From Robertkochia marina (GTDB lineage: Bacteria; Bacteroidota; Bacteroidia; Flavobacteriales; Flavobacteriaceae), in assembly GCF_004799345.1 (NCBI RefSeq), contig NZ_SSMC01000003.1:124001-188000 (forward strand): a DNA stretch of 64,000 nucleotides. Direction: 5' to 3'. Below the pieces are notes generated by a model. That model had not been told where the DNA came from and did not search any database. It saw only the letters and a program-made list of their open reading frames with translations. Positions 27,928-35,149 of the stretch are shown one piece after another (position 1 is the first letter of the stretch; every line of letters starts with the position of its first letter). Both the position numbers and the translations under genes were made by a program.

Positions 27928-28689
27928 TTATCGAATACTTTGAATAAATTCTCCAATTCCCTCCACTCCTTTGTTGGTTAAATGCTTGATAAATGCCGAC
28001 CCGATGATGGCACCTTTAGCATGGGATGTAGCGGCCTGAAAGGTGGCTGCATTGCTGATCCCAAATCCTACGATACAGGGAGATTTGAGGTTCATGGCCG
28101 CAATTCTCTTAAAATAGGCTTCCTGTTGGTCTCCAAAGGAATTCTTGGCACCGGTAACCGATGCAGAACTTACCATATAAATAAAGGCATTAGAAATATT
28201 GTCAATAAACCGGATACGCTCTTCCGGGGTTTGAGGGGTGATCAGGAAAATATTGACCAGTCCGTATTTTTCAAAGATCTCACGATAGGATTCGTTGTAG
28301 ATTTCCGGTGGAAGATCGGGAATGATCAATCCGTCGATTCCTACTTCTTTACATTTTAGACAAAAGGCTTCAACTCCGAATTGCAGCATGGGGTTAAAGT
28401 ACCCCATAATAATTAGTGGGATATCGACCTCAGACCTGATGTCTTTCAGCTGCTCGAACAATACCTTCGTAGACATTCCTAGCTTCAAAGCCTTTACTGA
28501 GCTTTCCTGTATGGTCGGCCCATCGGCCAGGGGGTCGCTGAAGGGCAATCCGATCTCGATCATGTCTACTCCGTTCTCCTGAAGCGATTTGATGATAGGT
28601 TTGGTGTCGTCTTTTGACGGGTAGCCGGAGGTGAAATATATGGAAAGCAGTTTTTTTGATTCTTCCAGTTTTTTGTTGATCCTGTTCAT
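27928..28689 (-). CDS. trpA: Tryptophan synthase alpha subunit
   Basis: Cleaves indole-3-glycerol phosphate to indole, which passes to TrpB. The 253-aa TIM barrel has the family signature GVDMIEIGLPFSDPLADGPTIQ (catalytic Asp/Glu region) and FGISNAATFQ near the phosphate site. Last of seven trp genes, 5 nt after trpB. Confidence 0.98.
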   Translation of the reverse strand: MNRINKKLEESKKLLSIYFTSGYPSKDDTKPIIKSLQENGVDMIEIGLPFSDPLADGPTIQESSVKALKLGMSTKVLFEQLKDIRSEVDIPLIIMGYFNPMLQFGVEAFCLKCKEVGIDGLIIPDLPPEIYNESYREIFEKYGLVNIFLITPQTPEERIRFIDNISNAFIYMVSSASVTGAKNSFGDQQEAYFKRIAAMNLKSPCIVGFGISNAATFQAATSHAKGAIIGSAFIKHLTNKGVEGIGEFIQSIR

Positions 28690-28694
28690 GTGAT

Positions 28695-29876
28695 TTAAAG
28701 CTTAAAGTAATCGATATAAGTATTCAGGTCTTTGTCGCCTCTTCCGGATAGGTTAACTACCACTACCTCATCTTTCTCGAATGGACGCTGATTAAAAACG
28801 TTAAAAGCATGGGCGGTTTCAATGGCGGGGATGATACCTTCCATTTTAGAGAGCTCCAATCCGGCCTTCATGGCATCATCATCAGTAACGGAGATGAATT
28901 CGCCTCTTCCGGTTTCATAGAGATGGGCATGCATGGGGCCTACCCCCGGGTAATCAAGCCCTGCAGAGATGCTGTAGGGTTCAGTGATCTGTCCGTCTGC
29001 TGTTTGCATAAGCAGGGTTTTGCAACCGTGAATGATACCTTGTTTTCCTAATACAGAGGTAGCTGCACTTTCACCGCTTTCAATGCCCTTACCGGCAGCC
29101 TCAACGGCAATAATGTTTACGTGTTTGTTATCAAGAAAATGGTAGTAGGTTCCGGCAGCATTACTTCCGCCGCCAATACATGCTACCACATGATCGGGAT
29201 ATTCACGGCCTTCCTGTTCCTGGAGCTGCGTTTTGATCTCTTCAGAGATCACACTTTGAAACCTTGTAACCATATCCGGGTAGGGGTGGGGGCCGATGGC
29301 TGAACCGATAATATAATGAGTATCCACGGGGTTGTTGATCCAATCGCGTATGGCTTCATTCGTAGCATCTTTAAGGGTTCGGCTCCCCGAGGTTGCCGGG
29401 CGTACTTCTGCCCCAAGCATTTTCATTCGGGCTACATTCGGCGCCTGCCGTGCGATATCGATCTCGCCCATATAGACCACACAGTCTATACCCATCAGGG
29501 CACAAACAGTAGCGGTGGCAACCCCATGCTGTCCTGCACCGGTTTCTGCGATGATCCTGTTCTTGCCAAGTCTCTTGGCCATAAGGATCTGCCCAATGGT
29601 GTTGTTGACCTTGTGTGCGCCTGTATGGTTCAGGTCTTCTCTTTTCAGGTAGATCCTGCATTGGTATTTCTGTGACAAACGGTTTGCGAAATACAGCGGT
29701 GTGGGGCGCCCCACATAATCTTTCAAAAGCTTGTTGAACTCCTTTTGAAATGATTCCTCTCCCATGATCTGCAGGTAGTTCGTTCGCAGCTCTTCCACAT
29801 TTGGATAAAGCATCTCGGGGATGTAGGCACCTCCGAAGTTGCCGTAATACCCCCTTTGGTCTACATGATAATTCAT
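28695..29876 (-). CDS. trpB: Tryptophan synthase beta subunit
   Basis: Condenses indole with serine, using [19 protein letters not shown] contains the PLP-binding lysine in [18 protein letters not shown] binds the cofactor phosphate, and NLSGRGDKD is the C-terminal signature. At 393 aa it is the canonical TrpB1 type. It begins 3 nt after the trpF stop and is followed by trpA, the normal subunit pair order. Confidence 0.98.
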
Positions 29877-29879
29877 AAT

Positions 29880-30536
29880 CTAATTTTTTATGTTTTCGGT
29901 TTCCCTGATCCGGGAAATAAAATTTTTTAATCGTTTGTCGTCCTTAAGACCGGGTTCCAGTTCGAAGCCACTGTTTACATCGATTCCGACGCAATTTCTT
30001 CCCTCCGGAGATAGCAGAAACCCTTCAAGGGCCTTGAGATCTTCAGGACCGATACCTCCGCTCAGCAAGAACGGTATTTGGAGCTTATAAGCTTGCAGCA
30101 CCTGCCAGTTAAATTGAAGCCCGTTACCACCCCTGTTTTTTCCTTTGGTGTCAAAAAGGAAGTAATCGGCGCAGTTCTCATACTTATCACTGCCAGAGAG
30201 GTCATCTTCTCCGGCAACTGAAAAGACCTTAATGAGTTCAGCCCTGTTTCCGGAAGCCTTAAGGGCAGATCTCAACGCAGTGCAATACTCAGGAGTTTCA
30301 TCGCCGTGTAACTGCAGGTAGCTGAGGCCATACTTCGTTGCTTTCTCAAGCACGGTTTCCACTTCGGCATTTACAAATACTCCTGCCATCTTTAGTGATT
30401 CGGGTAGCTCCGGTAGCATGCCCTCGAAATAACGGGGCGATTTCCCGTAAAAGATAAGTCCCATCACATCCGGTCCTGCACTAGCAACAGCCTTCATGTT
30501 TTCCGGGTGCTTCATTCCGCAAACCTTAATGATCAT
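29880..30536 (-). CDS. trpF: Phosphoribosylanthranilate isomerase
   Basis: A 218-aa TIM barrel for the Amadori rearrangement of phosphoribosylanthranilate. IIKVCGMKHPENM carries the catalytic Cys (residue 6); GLIFYGKSPRYF, LQLHGDE and the phosphate-binding LLSGGIGPED match the family. It is separate from trpC, unlike in enterobacteria. Its ATG overlaps the trpC stop (4 nt). Confidence 0.97.
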   Translation of the reverse strand: MIIKVCGMKHPENMKAVASAGPDVMGLIFYGKSPRYFEGMLPELPESLKMAGVFVNAEVETVLEKATKYGLSYLQLHGDETPEYCTALRSALKASGNRAELIKVFSVAGEDDLSGSDKYENCADYFLFDTKGKNRGGNGLQFNWQVLQAYKLQIPFLLSGGIGPEDLKALEGFLLSPEGRNCVGIDVNSGFELEPGLKDDKRLKNFISRIRETENIKN

Positions 30537-31345
30537 AGGGCAGTTTGTTTTAAGGAATTTATGAACTGCCGGGCTGTCTGTCCGGGATCTTCAGTTCGCA
30601 TAAAATGTTCGCCAACCAGGAATCCTCGAAAACCATAGGGGCGTAGGGCTGTGATGGTTTTTTCGTCAGAGATTCCACTCTCAGATACTTTTACAAAACT
30701 GTCGGGGATAACCTCTGCCAGGCTTTTACTGGTTTCAACAGATACCTCAAAGGTCTTCAGGTTTCTGTTGTTCACCCCCACCATATGGCAATAGTCATTA
30801 AGGTGAGAATCCAGTTCAGCTGCGGTGTGAACTTCAAGAAGCACTTCCAGCCCGAGGTCATTGGCCTGAAGGGCAAGTTCTTTTGTATGTCCCGGACTCA
30901 GGGCCGCGGCAATGAGTAAAATGACGTCGGCTCCATGCGCCTTGGCTTCGAGCAATTGATACGGATCAGAGATAAAATCCTTTCTGAGCAGGGGCAAATT
31001 TACCGAAGCTCTTGCCAATTGCAGATCTTCCAGAGACCCTCCGAAATATTTTCCTTCGGTAAGTACCGACATACCACAGGCTCCTGCTTTCTCGTATCCT
31101 TTGGCTACCTCTGAAAGACTCAGTGACTGGTTGATCACTGCCTTAGAGGGAGAGCGACGTTTATGTTCGGCAATAATACCCGTATCGCTATTTCGTAACC
31201 TGGCGCTTAAGGAAATACCACTTCTTTTGAACATGGCAGCAGCACGCAACTCACTTTCTGAAATGAGTTGTTTTTTAAGAGCCACTTCCACTTGCTTATC
31301 ATAAATGATCTTTGATAATATACTGGGCGTATTCGCAGACTTCAT
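30533..31345 (-). CDS. trpC: Indole-3-glycerol phosphate synthase
   Basis: Closes the indole ring. In the 270-aa protein IIAEHKRRSPSKAVIN holds the catalytic lysine, SVLTEGKYFGGSLEDL and LLRKDFISDPYQLLEA the second catalytic lysine, and VGVNNRNLKTFEV and VSESGI the phosphate and glutamate motifs. It is monofunctional. It follows trpD by 1 nt and overlaps trpF. Confidence 0.98.
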   Translation of the reverse strand: MKSANTPSILSKIIYDKQVEVALKKQLISESELRAAAMFKRSGISLSARLRNSDTGIIAEHKRRSPSKAVINQSLSLSEVAKGYEKAGACGMSVLTEGKYFGGSLEDLQLARASVNLPLLRKDFISDPYQLLEAKAHGADVILLIAAALSPGHTKELALQANDLGLEVLLEVHTAAELDSHLNDYCHMVGVNNRNLKTFEVSVETSKSLAEVIPDSFVKVSESGISDEKTITALRPYGFRGFLVGEHFMRTEDPGQTARQFINSLKQTAL

Positions 31346-31346
31346 A

Positions 31347-32339
31347 TTAATTACTAAGGTTTTGTAAGGTTTTGAAACATTTCAGGGCATTCCCGGCAAA
31401 AAGTGAATCCATTGCCATTTCTTTTGAAGATGCAAGGTCTTTTCCTGTGGCGGTAGCAATGGCAAGGGTGGCATTGGCGCATACCACTGAATTCTGGGCC
31501 TCGCTTCCTTTACCTTCCAGGATATTCATAAAGATGGCTGCATTTTGTTCAATGGTTTTTCCTCCTGCGATCTCCTCGGCCTTAAGGGTGCGCATGCCCA
31601 GGTCTTCGGCTTGTAAAACCTTTTCACTGTTATTGGCGATAAGTTTTGCAGGCCCGGTCAGGGATACTTCGTCATACCCGTCCATGGCGTGAAGAATGGT
31701 GTAATTTTTATCTGTATTCTGGTAAAGATAGCCATACAGTCGTGCCAGTTCAAGATTGAATACGCCAACCATCTGATTTTTAGGAAAGGCGGGATTTACC
31801 ATGGGCCCGAGCATGTTAAAAAAGGTTTTTACTCCCAATTCACGGCGAATGGGTGCCACCTCTTTCATAGCCGGGTGAAAAAGCGGAGCGTGTAAAATAC
31901 AGATACCGGCCTTCTCAAGAGTTTTGTTGAGAAAATCCCTGTCATTAGAGAATTTTATCCCTAATGACTCCAGCACATTGCTGGAACCACAGGAGGAAGA
32001 AACGCCGTAATTGCCGTGTTTGCTCACGGGGATACCTGCTCCGGCAGTGACAAAAGAGGCGAGGGTAGAGATATTAAAGGTGTCTTTGCCATCGCCCCCG
32101 GTGCCGCAAAGGTCAATCGCTTCCACGCCATTCAGATCTACAGCGATACACAGATCTAACAGTGCATCTCGGAACCCCTCCAGCTCTTCGAGGGTAATGC
32201 TTCGCATCATATATACCGTCAGAAAGGCTGCGATCTGGCTTTGATTGTAGTTACCTCCTGAAATGTTCACCAGAACGTTCCTGGCTTCCTCCCGGGATAT
32301 GCTTTCATGATTAATAAGTCTGTTTAATATCTTTTTCAT
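31347..32339 (-). CDS. trpD: Anthranilate phosphoribosyltransferase
   Basis: A 330-aa enzyme that transfers phosphoribose from PRPP to anthranilate. The PRPP-binding GTGGDGKDTFNIST and the anthranilate loop KHGNYGVSSSCGSSNVLE are intact; RRELGVKTFFNMLGPMVNP is the third motif. It is not fused to trpG, which lies 7 nt upstream as a separate gene. Confidence 0.98.
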   Translation of the reverse strand: MKKILNRLINHESISREEARNVLVNISGGNYNQSQIAAFLTVYMMRSITLEELEGFRDALLDLCIAVDLNGVEAIDLCGTGGDGKDTFNISTLASFVTAGAGIPVSKHGNYGVSSSCGSSNVLESLGIKFSNDRDFLNKTLEKAGICILHAPLFHPAMKEVAPIRRELGVKTFFNMLGPMVNPAFPKNQMVGVFNLELARLYGYLYQNTDKNYTILHAMDGYDEVSLTGPAKLIANNSEKVLQAEDLGMRTLKAEEIAGGKTIEQNAAIFMNILEGKGSEAQNSVVCANATLAIATATGKDLASSKEMAMDSLFAGNALKCFKTLQNLSN

Positions 32340-32346
32340 AGCAATT

Positions 32347-32907
32347 TTAAATGTTAACCCAATTTTCTAAGATCTTTTTGCCTTCAGGAGTCAGGACCGA
32401 CTCCGGGTGATACTGCACCCCACGAACATCAAATTCACGGTGCTTTAATGACATGATCTGTCCGTTCTCATCTATTGAAGTGGCTATCAAAGCAGGGGGG
32501 AGTTCTTTAGCAACCACCCAACTGTGGTACCGGCCCACTTCAAGGGTTGTTGGCAGGCCGGCATAGATCGGGTCGTATTCTGTGACCTCGATGGTTGTTG
32601 ATACCCCGTGATATACCTTATCCAGGTTCAAAATACTCCCGCCGAAGACCTCGGCTATAGCCTGCTGCCCGAGACATACTCCCAGAATACTGTGGGTTGG
32701 TGCGTATTTTTTTATAATAGCCTTTAACAGGCCGGCCTCATCAGGGATGCCCGGACCCGGAGATAACAGTATTTTATCGAAAGGGGCCACTTCCTCCAGG
32801 GTCAACCTATCGTTTCTTTTCACCGTAACCTCACACCCCAGGTCGATAAGATAATGTACCAGGTTGTAGGTGAAGCTGTCGTAATTGTCAATAACTAATA
32901 CCTTCAT
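32347..32907 (-). CDS. trpG: Anthranilate synthase component II (glutamine amidotransferase)
   Basis: The 186-aa class I amidotransferase supplies ammonia to TrpE. The oxyanion strand LSPGPGIP, the nucleophile motif GVCLGQQAIAEVFGG (Cys) and the His-Glu pair in VQYHPESVLT form a complete triad. It may also serve p-aminobenzoate synthesis, as in many bacteria that have one such subunit, but no pab gene is seen here. It is 4 nt from trpE. Confidence 0.96.
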   Translation of the reverse strand: MKVLVIDNYDSFTYNLVHYLIDLGCEVTVKRNDRLTLEEVAPFDKILLSPGPGIPDEAGLLKAIIKKYAPTHSILGVCLGQQAIAEVFGGSILNLDKVYHGVSTTIEVTEYDPIYAGLPTTLEVGRYHSWVVAKELPPALIATSIDENGQIMSLKHREFDVRGVQYHPESVLTPEGKKILENWVNI

Positions 32908-32911
32908 ACGT

Positions 32912-34315
32912 TTAAATTTCTTTGGCTAATTCTAACGCTGAGGTCAGGGCGCCAAGTTTATTATAGGTTTCCTGTAATTCTGCTTCCGGGTCAGATGCCG
33001 CTACCAGTCCGGCTCCGGCCTGGTAATATAATTCATGGTCTTTGCTTAAAAAGGTCCTGATCATGATAGCGTGGTTGAAATTGCCTGAGAAATCCATAAA
33101 TCCAATAGCTCCGCCGTAATAATTGCGATTTCCGGGTTCATAACGGTCGATGAGCTGCATAGCCATGTGTTTTGGCGCTCCGCTGAGGGTTCCTGCAGGA
33201 AAGGTGTCGGCCACTACCTGCATGGTAGGGATCTCCGGATTTTTTTTAGCGACCACCTTGGAAACAAGGTGGATGACATGGGAAAAGAATTGTACTTCGC
33301 GATTGGTTTCTACTTCTACCGTATTGCCGTTCCTGCTAAGATCATTCCTGGCAAGATCAACAAGCATAACGTGCTCGCTGTTTTCCTTTTCATCATTTGA
33401 TAGGGCTCTTGCAAGACGGGCATCTTGTTCATCATTCCCTGTTCTCTTAAAGGTACCTGCTATAGGGTGTATCTCAGCACGATCATTTTTAATAACAAGT
33501 TGTGATTCCGGAGAGCTTCCGAAAATTCTGAAGTTGCCGTAATCAAAAAAGAAAAGGTAAGGAGAGGGGTTTACCGATCGCAATGCCCTGTAAACATTAA
33601 ACTCGTCGCCCTTAAACTTCTGGCTGAATCTTCGGGAAAGCACCAATTGAAATACATCTCCCCGTGAGCAATGGTGTTTGGCTTTTTTCACAAGCTCTTT
33701 GTAGTCGTCATCAGTCAGGGCCGAGGCAGGACTGCCTTCCGGCTGAAAACTGTACGAAGCATAATTTCTCGAGCGGATGAGCTGTTGTATTTCCTCCAGG
33801 TTGTTTTGATCCTTATAATCATGAGAGAAAAGGTAGGCTTCATTTTTAAAGTGGTTGATAGCTATGATGTTTCGGTATACTGCATAATAAAGGTCCGGTA
33901 TATCAATGCGATCATCTTTTTTCCGGATCTCAATATCTTCAAAATACCTCACCGCATCATATGCAATATAGCCGAACAGACCGTTGTTGATGAACTTGAA
34001 TTCGTTCCCGTCGGTTTCAAATTTCCCGGCAAAGTCTTCAATGAGTTGTGGTAATTGTACATCTTTCCGGTTTAATGCAGCCTCATGTTGTGTGCCGTCA
34101 GGGTAGCTGGCGTAAAACGTATTATTCTCGGCTTTGATATGGGCAATCGGATTGAAACAGATGTAGGAGAAACTGTTGTCATTGGCGTGATAATCGCTCG
34201 ACTCCAGGAGGATACTGTTCGGGAACCGGTCTCTTATTTTAAGGTAGATGCTCACCGGGGTAATCGTGTCGGCAAGGATCTTACGGTAAGATGTTTTTAG
34301 TCGGTATGAATTCAT
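32912..34315 (-). CDS. trpE: Anthranilate synthase component I
   Basis: Converts chorismate to anthranilate. The 467-aa chorismate-binding protein has SILLESSDY near residue 35; the LLES motif is the tryptophan feedback site of TrpE, which favours this over PabB. The catalytic half contains HPIAGTFKRTGNDEQD, LVDLARNDLSRNG, TFPAGTLSGAPK and YYGGAIGF. First structural gene of the trp operon, 28 nt after an intrinsic terminator that belongs to a leader attenuator. Confidence 0.97.
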   Translation of the reverse strand: MNSYRLKTSYRKILADTITPVSIYLKIRDRFPNSILLESSDYHANDNSFSYICFNPIAHIKAENNTFYASYPDGTQHEAALNRKDVQLPQLIEDFAGKFETDGNEFKFINNGLFGYIAYDAVRYFEDIEIRKKDDRIDIPDLYYAVYRNIIAINHFKNEAYLFSHDYKDQNNLEEIQQLIRSRNYASYSFQPEGSPASALTDDDYKELVKKAKHHCSRGDVFQLVLSRRFSQKFKGDEFNVYRALRSVNPSPYLFFFDYGNFRIFGSSPESQLVIKNDRAEIHPIAGTFKRTGNDEQDARLARALSNDEKENSEHVMLVDLARNDLSRNGNTVEVETNREVQFFSHVIHLVSKVVAKKNPEIPTMQVVADTFPAGTLSGAPKHMAMQLIDRYEPGNRNYYGGAIGFMDFSGNFNHAIMIRTFLSKDHELYYQAGAGLVAASDPEAELQETYNKLGALTSALELAKEI

Positions 34316-34342
34316 TGTAATTCGTTTTAATCAGGTGTTGGC

Positions 34343-34374
34343 AAAAAAAAAGCCCGTCGTGATCGACAGGCTTT
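34343..34374 (-). terminator. trp attenuator terminator
   Basis: On the minus strand AAAGCCTGTCG-ATCA-CGACGGGCTTT, an 11-bp stem with one G-U pair, followed by T8. It lies between the leader peptide and trpE, so it is a regulated premature terminator. A 7-nt segment TCACGAC in its loop and 3' arm is the exact complement of GTCGTGA at 34404-34410 in the end of the leader ORF, a candidate antiterminator pairing. Confidence 0.9.
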
Positions 34375-34403
34375 TTGAAAAATATTTTCATACAGCGGTG
34401 TGC

Positions 34404-34460
34404 TCACGACAATCGACGTAAGGGAATCCACCACCAGTTATGTGTTCTGTTTTTAAACAT
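34404..34460 (-). CDS. trpL: trp operon leader peptide
   Basis: The minus-strand frame ATG to TGA encodes 18 residues, MFKNRTHNWWWIPLRRLS, with three consecutive Trp codons at positions 9-11 (34428-34436). It ends 29 nt before the terminator stem upstream of trpE. This is the layout of a ribosome-mediated attenuator: stalling at the Trp codons would leave the 3' part of the ORF free to pair with the terminator, while translation to the stop codon would cover it. The ATG lies 5 nt after a perfect -7 promoter box, so the transcript would have almost no 5' leader before this ORF. Confidence 0.88.
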   Translation of the reverse strand: MFKNRTHNWWWIPLRRLS

Positions 34461-34465
34461 CAGTT

Positions 34466-34496
34466 CAAATATAGAGAGGAGATGTGAATTTTCATA
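34466..34496 (-). promoter_or_regulatory. Promoter of the trp operon
   Basis: On the minus strand TATG (34496-34493; 3 of 4 to TTTG), 19-nt spacer, TATATTTG (34473-34466; exact TAnnTTTG). Transcription should begin within a few bases of the leader-peptide ATG. Confidence 0.7.
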
Positions 34497-34533
34497 GGTT
34501 TTTAAAAAAAATTATGAATCCTCTTAAAATAAG

Positions 34534-34558
34534 AACCCCGGGGTGATCGCCGGGGCTT
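34534..34558 (-). terminator. Intrinsic terminator after the yceI gene
   Basis: Minus-strand hairpin AGCCCCGG / CCGGGGTT with an 8-nt loop followed by CTTATTTT, 19 nt after the stop of the YceI gene. Confidence 0.8.
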
Positions 34559-34576
34559 TCATCATTGCGTTTGAGT

Positions 34577-35149
34577 TTAGAACTGCAGGTCTACAACAAG
34601 ATCGAACTCGTCATATATAGTTTTGTCTCCCAGGTCGTCAAAGAATGAGCCTGAGCCGTAACGAATGTCGTATTTGGTACGATCTATTTTTACGTTGGCA
34701 GTGGCTTTATTACCGTAAACAGACATGTCAAAAGTTACAGGGTTGGTCTTTCCTTTAACAGTAAGATCACCGGTTACCTCGTATGAATTTTTACCATTCG
34801 ATTTTACATCGGTAATCTTTAAGGAAGCAGTAGGGAATTTTTCAACACCAAAAAAATCATCTGATTTCAGGTGGACTTCCAGTTTTCCTTTATACTCTCC
34901 TGTCAAATCGGTTGAGATAAGTGTAGACATGTCTACCACGAATTCTCCTCCGGTTAATTGATCTCCGTCAAATTCAAGATTACCGCTTTGCAATTGAACG
35001 GTACCTTCGTGAGAACCGGTTACCTTATAACCCTTCCAGGTTACAGTACTTTCTTCCGGTTTCACTGATTTCTCTTCAACGGGGGTGGTAAAAGCAACCA
35101 GTCCGGTGGCGATGGTCAATACCAATACAGATTTAAAGAACTTTTTCAT
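34577..35149 (-). CDS. YceI family protein
   Basis: A 190-aa protein with a cleavable N-terminal signal sequence (about 1-19, MKKFFKSVLVLTIATGLVA) and a YceI lipocalin-like barrel that binds polyisoprenoids or other lipids. SHEGTVQLQSGNLEF, DLTVKGKTNPVTFDMSVYG and KIDRTKYDIRYGSGSFFDDLGD are the typical repeats of the fold. I use ATG 35149, where the signal peptide begins. It lies 19 nt downstream of the nitroreductase gene, so it is likely in the marR operon and may respond to the same signal. Confidence 0.92.
   Translation of the reverse strand: MKKFFKSVLVLTIATGLVAFTTPVEEKSVKPEESTVTWKGYKVTGSHEGTVQLQSGNLEFDGDQLTGGEFVVDMSTLISTDLTGEYKGKLEVHLKSDDFFGVEKFPTASLKITDVKSNGKNSYEVTGDLTVKGKTNPVTFDMSVYGNKATANVKIDRTKYDIRYGSGSFFDDLGDKTIYDEFDLVVDLQF

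Follow-up and report, generated by a model that had tools for sequence, protein, structure and literature searches.

A predicted ribosome-mediated attenuator upstream of trpE in Robertkochia marina, with a candidate antiterminator centred on the terminator loop

How is transcription into the tryptophan operon of Robertkochia marina controlled, and what part might a short Trp-rich reading frame in front of trpE play in it? Within the stretch of DNA analyzed here (64,000 nucleotides, hereafter the window), the leader open reading frame (ORF) MFKNRTHNWWWIPLRRLS lies on the minus strand upstream of trpE and comprises 18 codons followed by a UGA stop (34460-34404), among them three consecutive UGG codons (34436-34428). 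An intrinsic terminator follows on the same strand (34376-34343), with 27 bases between the stop of the ORF and its first base. Read from the sequence and by terminator parsing, its hairpin (34376-34347) has 13 pairs between the 5' arm AAAAAGCCUGUCG (34376-34364) and the 3' arm CGACGGGCUUUUU (34359-34347), is closed by the 4-nt loop AUCA and leads into a U tract (34351-34343); trpE begins at 34315. The ORF and the terminator were thereby confirmed at the places given for them in a preliminary description of this DNA. The stretch 34462-34343 folds at -36.9 kcal/mol, compared with -23.7 ± 3.4 kcal/mol for shuffled versions, none of which was as good (0/200). We rejected the possibility of a chance ORF: this is the only ATG-started ORF of fewer than 50 codons with three consecutive tryptophans (WWW) on both strands of the window, and it is conserved before trpE in relatives.

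The first gene of the operon, trpE (32912-34315, minus strand), has trpE_most as its best NCBIfam match (E = 1e-128, below the model's curated cut-off). It is followed on the same strand by trpG, trpD, trpC, trpF, trpB and trpA, in that order (27928-32907), identified by their best NCBIfam matches, of which that of trpF was below its curated cut-off. The operon thus consists of seven unfused genes, trpEGDCFBA. The Escherichia coli operon has the same E-G-D-C-F-B-A order with two gene fusions, so the different gene order initially attributed to the R. marina operon has to be withdrawn: the arrangement matches E. coli except that both fusions are split. Upstream of the leader lies a YceI-like gene (NCBIfam E = 2.8e-14, below the curated cut-off), after which there is a terminator-like hairpin (34557-34534), with 0.9 such sites expected by chance in the scanned stretch.

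The leader is of a kind already known and in print since 2010, because it is covered by Rfam family RF01692 (Bacteroid-trp, described as "Bacteroidete tryptophan peptide leader RNA") and Weinberg et al. 2010 (PMC2864571) had included the motif among those of Bacteroidetes, naming it once in their main text, in a table. The novelty of an attenuator in Bacteroidota is therefore smaller than was first suggested. RF01692 matches positions 34480-34365 (minus strand) over all 131 model positions, with 48.9 bits (E = 1.1e-4), which is 0.1 bit below the gathering cut-off of 49 bits. Like the family members, the window leader aligns over the full length of the model, lies upstream of trp biosynthesis genes and contains a short ORF with Trp codons, three in a row where the family asks for at least two. 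It differs in several outer-hairpin pairs, which are non-standard in the window. The model itself has a single hairpin and ends inside the 5' arm of the terminator, containing neither terminator nor antiterminator.

All five genomes of the genus matched RF01692 at E ≤ 0.001, two of them above the cut-off at the orthologous place, the window genome not being one of these two. Among 100 Flavobacteriaceae genomes, 71 matched (62 above the cut-off), while a sample of 395 genomes of the phylum gave 42 matches, 35 in Flavobacteriaceae and 7 outside. Almost all the matches in the 71 Flavobacteriaceae genomes (70/71) sit 26-415 nt before trpE on the same strand, and the remaining one (G086) is at a contig end. 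WWW was found in 106 of 114 RF01692 hits and WW in 5 more; the other 3 contained TGGTGGTGG but no ATG-started ORF.

Since the RF01692 covariance model itself contains Trp codons, we added sets of loci selected by TrpE. There was no RF01692 match in 29 of the 100 Flavobacteriaceae genomes; 9 of these had only weak TrpE-like matches (best E from 1e-47 to 1e-8) and 2 had a TrpE that was fragmentary or at a contig edge. The remaining 18 encode TrpE, and 17 of them have a WW or WWW leader, with a terminator behind it in every case (16 on the first parse, L132 on the second); G039 was the sole genome of the 18 with TrpE and no leader. Altogether, a Trp-codon run precedes trpE in 88 of the 89 Flavobacteriaceae genomes with TrpE and a readable upstream region, three of the 71 RF01692-matching ones (L021, L031 and L098) having the run without an ATG-started ORF. 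These three carry TGGTGGTGG and, by eye, an in-frame TTG at the usual place of the ATG. For the second set, named records were scanned for TrpE and the best 80 of 586 relatives were kept, so that it represents close relatives. The leader was present in 80/80 of these loci: 75 have the WWW ORF, the terminator and the loop pairing described below within 450 nt of trpE, and in the other 5 the leader and terminator are found farther upstream, as is the pairing, at -7.8 to -11.8 kcal/mol. A terminator was found in 129 of the 131 leaders with TGGTGG. Lack of conservation of the Trp codons or of the terminator had been named beforehand as an observation that would speak against attenuation, and both turned out to be conserved. 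Leader-peptide attenuation of trp is thus predicted to be near-universal in the sampled Flavobacteriaceae genomes.

What could prevent the terminator from forming? The preliminary description had pointed to a 7-nt segment at the end of the ORF, and the proposal gained support from pairing, alignment and folding. GUCGUGA (34410-34404, minus strand), which includes the UGA stop of the leader, is complementary to UCACGAC (34362-34356), made up of the terminator loop and the top of the 3' arm. We analyzed this candidate antiterminator in 132 loci, of which L123 was dropped (no TGGTGG), leaving 131, as were L021 (the contig ends before the terminator) and L078 (no terminator found), leaving 129 leaders, dominated by Flavobacteriaceae; a set of 32 was obtained by thinning these at 82% identity. 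UCGUGA follows the Trp codons in 104/129 leaders, UCACGA occurs in the terminator of 104/129, and both are present in 96/129. Pairing with the loop reached -6 kcal/mol or better in 114/129 leaders, and began 15 to 22 nt past the Trp codons in 113 of them. Given the ribosome footprint, a ribosome placed on the Trp codons would leave such a segment free, and one at the stop would mostly cover it.

In the 32-row set, the mean energy with the own loop and 3' arm top was -7.30 kcal/mol, versus -6.07 with the terminators of other genomes and -3.77 for shuffled leaders. None of 5,000 permutations was as good as the own-terminator pairing (z = -4.2), although the own terminator was the top-ranked partner in only 3/32 leaders. 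The preference was weaker for the 5' arm plus loop (z = -3.0, 12/5,000 permutations as good) and weaker still for the 3' arm alone (z = -1.3, 499/5,000). In a MAFFT alignment of the 129 leaders, 796 of 903 cells (88.2%) were paired, compared with 9.5-52.2% in slid registers. The observed pairing was reached by 0/2,000 block permutations with 129 rows and by 3/2,000 with 32 rows.

The search for compensatory changes in relatives, recommended at the outset, gave some covariation. Cells changed on both sides numbered 17 of 903 with 129 rows, a measure that alone is not distinctive because slid registers reach 15, and 16 versus at most 10 in the 32-row set. Covariation is limited, since 92/129 leaders carry one of three 7-mers with an identical partner, and the first of the seven pairs is present in 62/129 leaders. 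Still, changes on both sides or to G-U do occur, pairing GUCGCAAU with AUUGCGAC (L087), CGUAAG with CUUGCG (L039), CGUAAGG with CUUUACG (L110) and UCGUGAAG with CUUCGCGA (L120).

In 15/129 leaders the loop pairing was weaker than -6 kcal/mol. For 7 of them, pairing with the whole terminator was matched by at most 25/500 shuffles, in L111 and L115/L116 by way of the 5' arm; for the other 8 (L083, L103, L112, L114, L117, L125, L127 and L130), more than 25/500 shuffles paired as well. In L115 and L116, which belong to another family (f3), the strongest pairing is that of GGCAGCC with the 5' arm, nearer to the E. coli design.

We then computed partition functions from which the RNA covered by the ribosome, and all that lies behind it, had been left out; the ribosome's leading edge was assumed to be 15 nt away from the A-site codon's first base. 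Capture was measured by the most probable single pair joining the spacer to either the loop or the four topmost bases of the 3' arm, and is given as the probability of that pair. For a ribosome stalled on the last Trp codon, when 4 nt of the 3' arm were out, loop capture had a median of 1.00 (>0.5 in 128/129 leaders), versus 0.26 when the spacer was shuffled (n = 129). With the ribosome at the stop, it was 0.00 (>0.5 in 3/129) and the terminator had 0.96. Folding of the leader under constraints, which had been proposed as a check, thus yielded the antiterminator when the ribosome was placed on the Trp codons but not when it had reached the stop. By folding and covariation, this antiterminator is exclusive with the terminator and depends on ribosome position. 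When 8 nt of the arm were out, median capture in the stalled state fell to 0.19 (>0.5 in 52/129) and the terminator exceeded 0.5 in 76/129; in the window the captured state lasted until 7-8 nt were out, after which the terminator took over. Even when the ribosome is stalled, equilibrium thus favours the terminator after most of the 3' arm has emerged, and antitermination would have to be kinetic.

CACACC (34402-34397, minus strand) had been proposed to pair with the Trp-codon region. The segment is where it was placed, and in the predicted fold its last four bases, CACC, pair with that region, forming a protector hairpin like the one in the RF01692 structure. The hairpin is leaky in the folding model, since the loop was partly captured with no ribosome at all: median capture was 0.39 at 4 nt and 0.01 at 6 nt (n = 129). 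For the window leader, these runs gave 0.44 at 4 nt; in separate runs for the window, capture without a ribosome was transient, with 0.87 at 5 nt and the terminator at 1.0 at 7 nt.

We rejected a form of the antiterminator that leaves the 5' arm untouched: of the 8 nt at the top of that arm, roughly 5 are likewise captured while the ribosome is stalled (median 4.92, n = 129). In the folding model the antiterminator is a long hairpin; its outer helix, the most conserved one, takes in the loop together with the top of the 3' arm.

These parts very probably form a ribosome-mediated transcription attenuator that senses charged tRNA-Trp. This was also the original proposal, and the tandem Trp codons, the terminator, the co-varying pairing and the ribosome-dependent folding, all of them computational observations, argue for it. 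With enough Trp, the ribosome would reach the UGA stop and cover GUCGUGA, the terminator would form, and RNA polymerase would stop before trpE. With scarce Trp-tRNA, the ribosome would stall on the UGG codons and leave GUCGUGA exposed, to pair with the emerging terminator loop and the top of the 3' arm and more weakly into the 5' arm; the terminator would then be delayed long enough for read-through. If there is no translation, the Trp-codon region and the bases around and after the stop would form a hairpin partly hiding GUCGUGA, and the terminator would be the default outcome. Translation of the ORF, the kinetics of antitermination and the response of the predicted attenuator to Trp are what we infer from the sequence.

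Could the Trp leader be real and its antiterminator classical, using the 5' arm alone, with the complementarity to the loop a by-product of codon and stop conservation? We consider this improbable. It is true that the stalled state captures 5' arm bases above the level of a shuffled spacer (mean 4.97 versus 4.25, higher in 96/129 leaders; 5.1 versus 4.7 in the window) and that L111 and L115/L116 pair most strongly with that arm. However, pairing with the own 5' arm is no better than with the terminators of other genomes (z = 0.07, 2,624/5,000 permutations as good, n = 32) and no better than that of shuffled leaders (-5.72 versus -5.88), whereas the loop plus the top of the 3' arm does favour the own terminator. 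Moreover, UCGUGA persists behind the stop in leaders whose ORF ends earlier (L121, L128, L132, L134 and L135), suggesting that it is not kept for the sake of the peptide.

The loop pairing might instead aid termination, or slow the polymerase until translation catches up. Loops of six bases in some kissing complexes pair fully without opening of the stem, which would suit such a role; yet in the window the pairing uses up four bases of the 3' arm, and in the folding runs it keeps the terminator from forming until some 8-9 nt of that arm have emerged. Moreover, the state in which it is exposed is that of starvation, the opposite of what a terminator helper would need. We regard such a role as very unlikely. 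Control of the operon by a protein or another RNA (TrpR, TRAP, a T-box or a riboswitch), the terminator being merely a 5' barrier, has a probability that we take to be close to negligible. The genome contained no match to TrpR (PF01371; the E. coli and B. subtilis ring controls worked) or TRAP (PF02081; the B. subtilis ring controls worked), and of the 22 Rfam matches that 34000-34800 gave up to E = 10, none was a T-box or a riboswitch; under such control the conserved tandem Trp codons would stay unexplained.

The predicted attenuator shares with E. coli trpL (RF00513) the tandem Trp codons, the terminator and the logic of ribosome position, and the window gave a weak match to that Trp_leader model (21.3 bits, below the cut-off of 41). 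The antiterminator of E. coli trp is the 2:3 structure, which pairs with the 5' arm of the terminator. Under the same folding protocol, the E. coli K-12 leader with a stalled ribosome had its 5' arm captured at 1.0 (2-4 nt out) and its loop at ≤0.02; once the ribosome was moved to the stop, it formed the terminator (from 4 nt onward). The E. coli antiterminator thus takes the 5' arm and not the loop, whereas the one predicted here is centred on the loop and the top of the 3' arm. As in the leaders studied here, the E. coli terminator won at equilibrium, at 6-7 nt, even with a stalled ribosome.

Full-text searches of open-licence papers returned no printed or loop-capturing antiterminator for Bacteroid-trp and no experimental study of trp attenuation in Bacteroidota. 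The Bacteroid-Trp RNA is stated to be conserved upstream of the trp operon in Flavobacterium psychrophilum, in a discussion remark whose passage holds no antiterminator (PMC6414381), and the main text of Naville and Gautheret 2010 (PMC2965389) contains no mention of Bacteroid, Flavobacter or trpE. In the fhsA motif, a pseudoknot with the terminator stem-loop was suggested to prevent the terminator; this is a riboswitch candidate from Leptotrichia and environmental sequences, with no leader peptide in the passage describing it (PMC11109978). In a passage of PMC8079631, the term "terminator loop" is used for small RNAs.

Where does the leader mRNA start? The element TATATTTG (34473-34466, minus strand), 5 nt before the leader ATG, fits the TAnnTTTG consensus of Bacteroidota promoters, quoted for the -7 region in PMC7366714, and is likely to be the promoter of the leader. 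The consensus promoter first described at this place is thus a promoter-like element of Bacteroidota type; a sigma-70 style scan gave 3 sites versus 2.0 expected, nothing beyond chance and hence uninformative. In 126/131 leaders, versus 10.7 expected in shuffles, the 110 nt preceding the Trp codons contain TAnnTTTG, which is followed by an in-frame ATG in 122/131, with a gap of at most 9 nt in 47 of those 122. Because this -7 element is only 5 nt from the ATG, transcription in the window would begin within a few bases of the ATG, and the leader mRNA is probably near-leaderless. Such a start would be unusual, given that about 3.7% of 5' untranslated regions in B. thetaiotaomicron are shorter than 10 nt (PMC7366714).

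Whether Bacteroid-trp leaders in general combine both traits, their last codons and stop seizing the terminator loop and the top of the 3' arm and the leader being nearly leaderless, we judge to be an even question. If so, the hairpin would be seized where it would nucleate, and a ribosome arriving at the stop would, in that same event, release the terminator. Capture of the terminator loop by a strand containing the stop codon would vary the textbook switch in a simple way. The candidate antiterminator is the part missing from the RF01692 model, and what this locus would add to the known leader is an antiterminator borne by the stop codon and centred on the loop and 3' arm, along with the probable near-leaderless start.

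Two other arrangements were observed among the relatives. In 5 of the 80 TrpE-selected loci (best 80 of 586), the attenuator terminator is separated from trpE by DNA of a small GIY-YIG nuclease gene (L151, 1170-1454; L152, from 1172; L162, from 1172; L196, from 1218; and a matching stretch in L175). Its 94-aa ORF is open in L151, L152 and L162, with PF01541 found in L151 and L162 (the two tested); the ORF is shorter in L196, and none of at least 60 aa is listed in L175. This looks like insertion at a recurrent place, and given its position between terminator and trpE the gene would be under Trp control. In L063 (G494), outside Flavobacteriaceae, the leader precedes an ORF starting MSKTFQVDDKGYYGEF, which by eye is trpB-like and not trpE.
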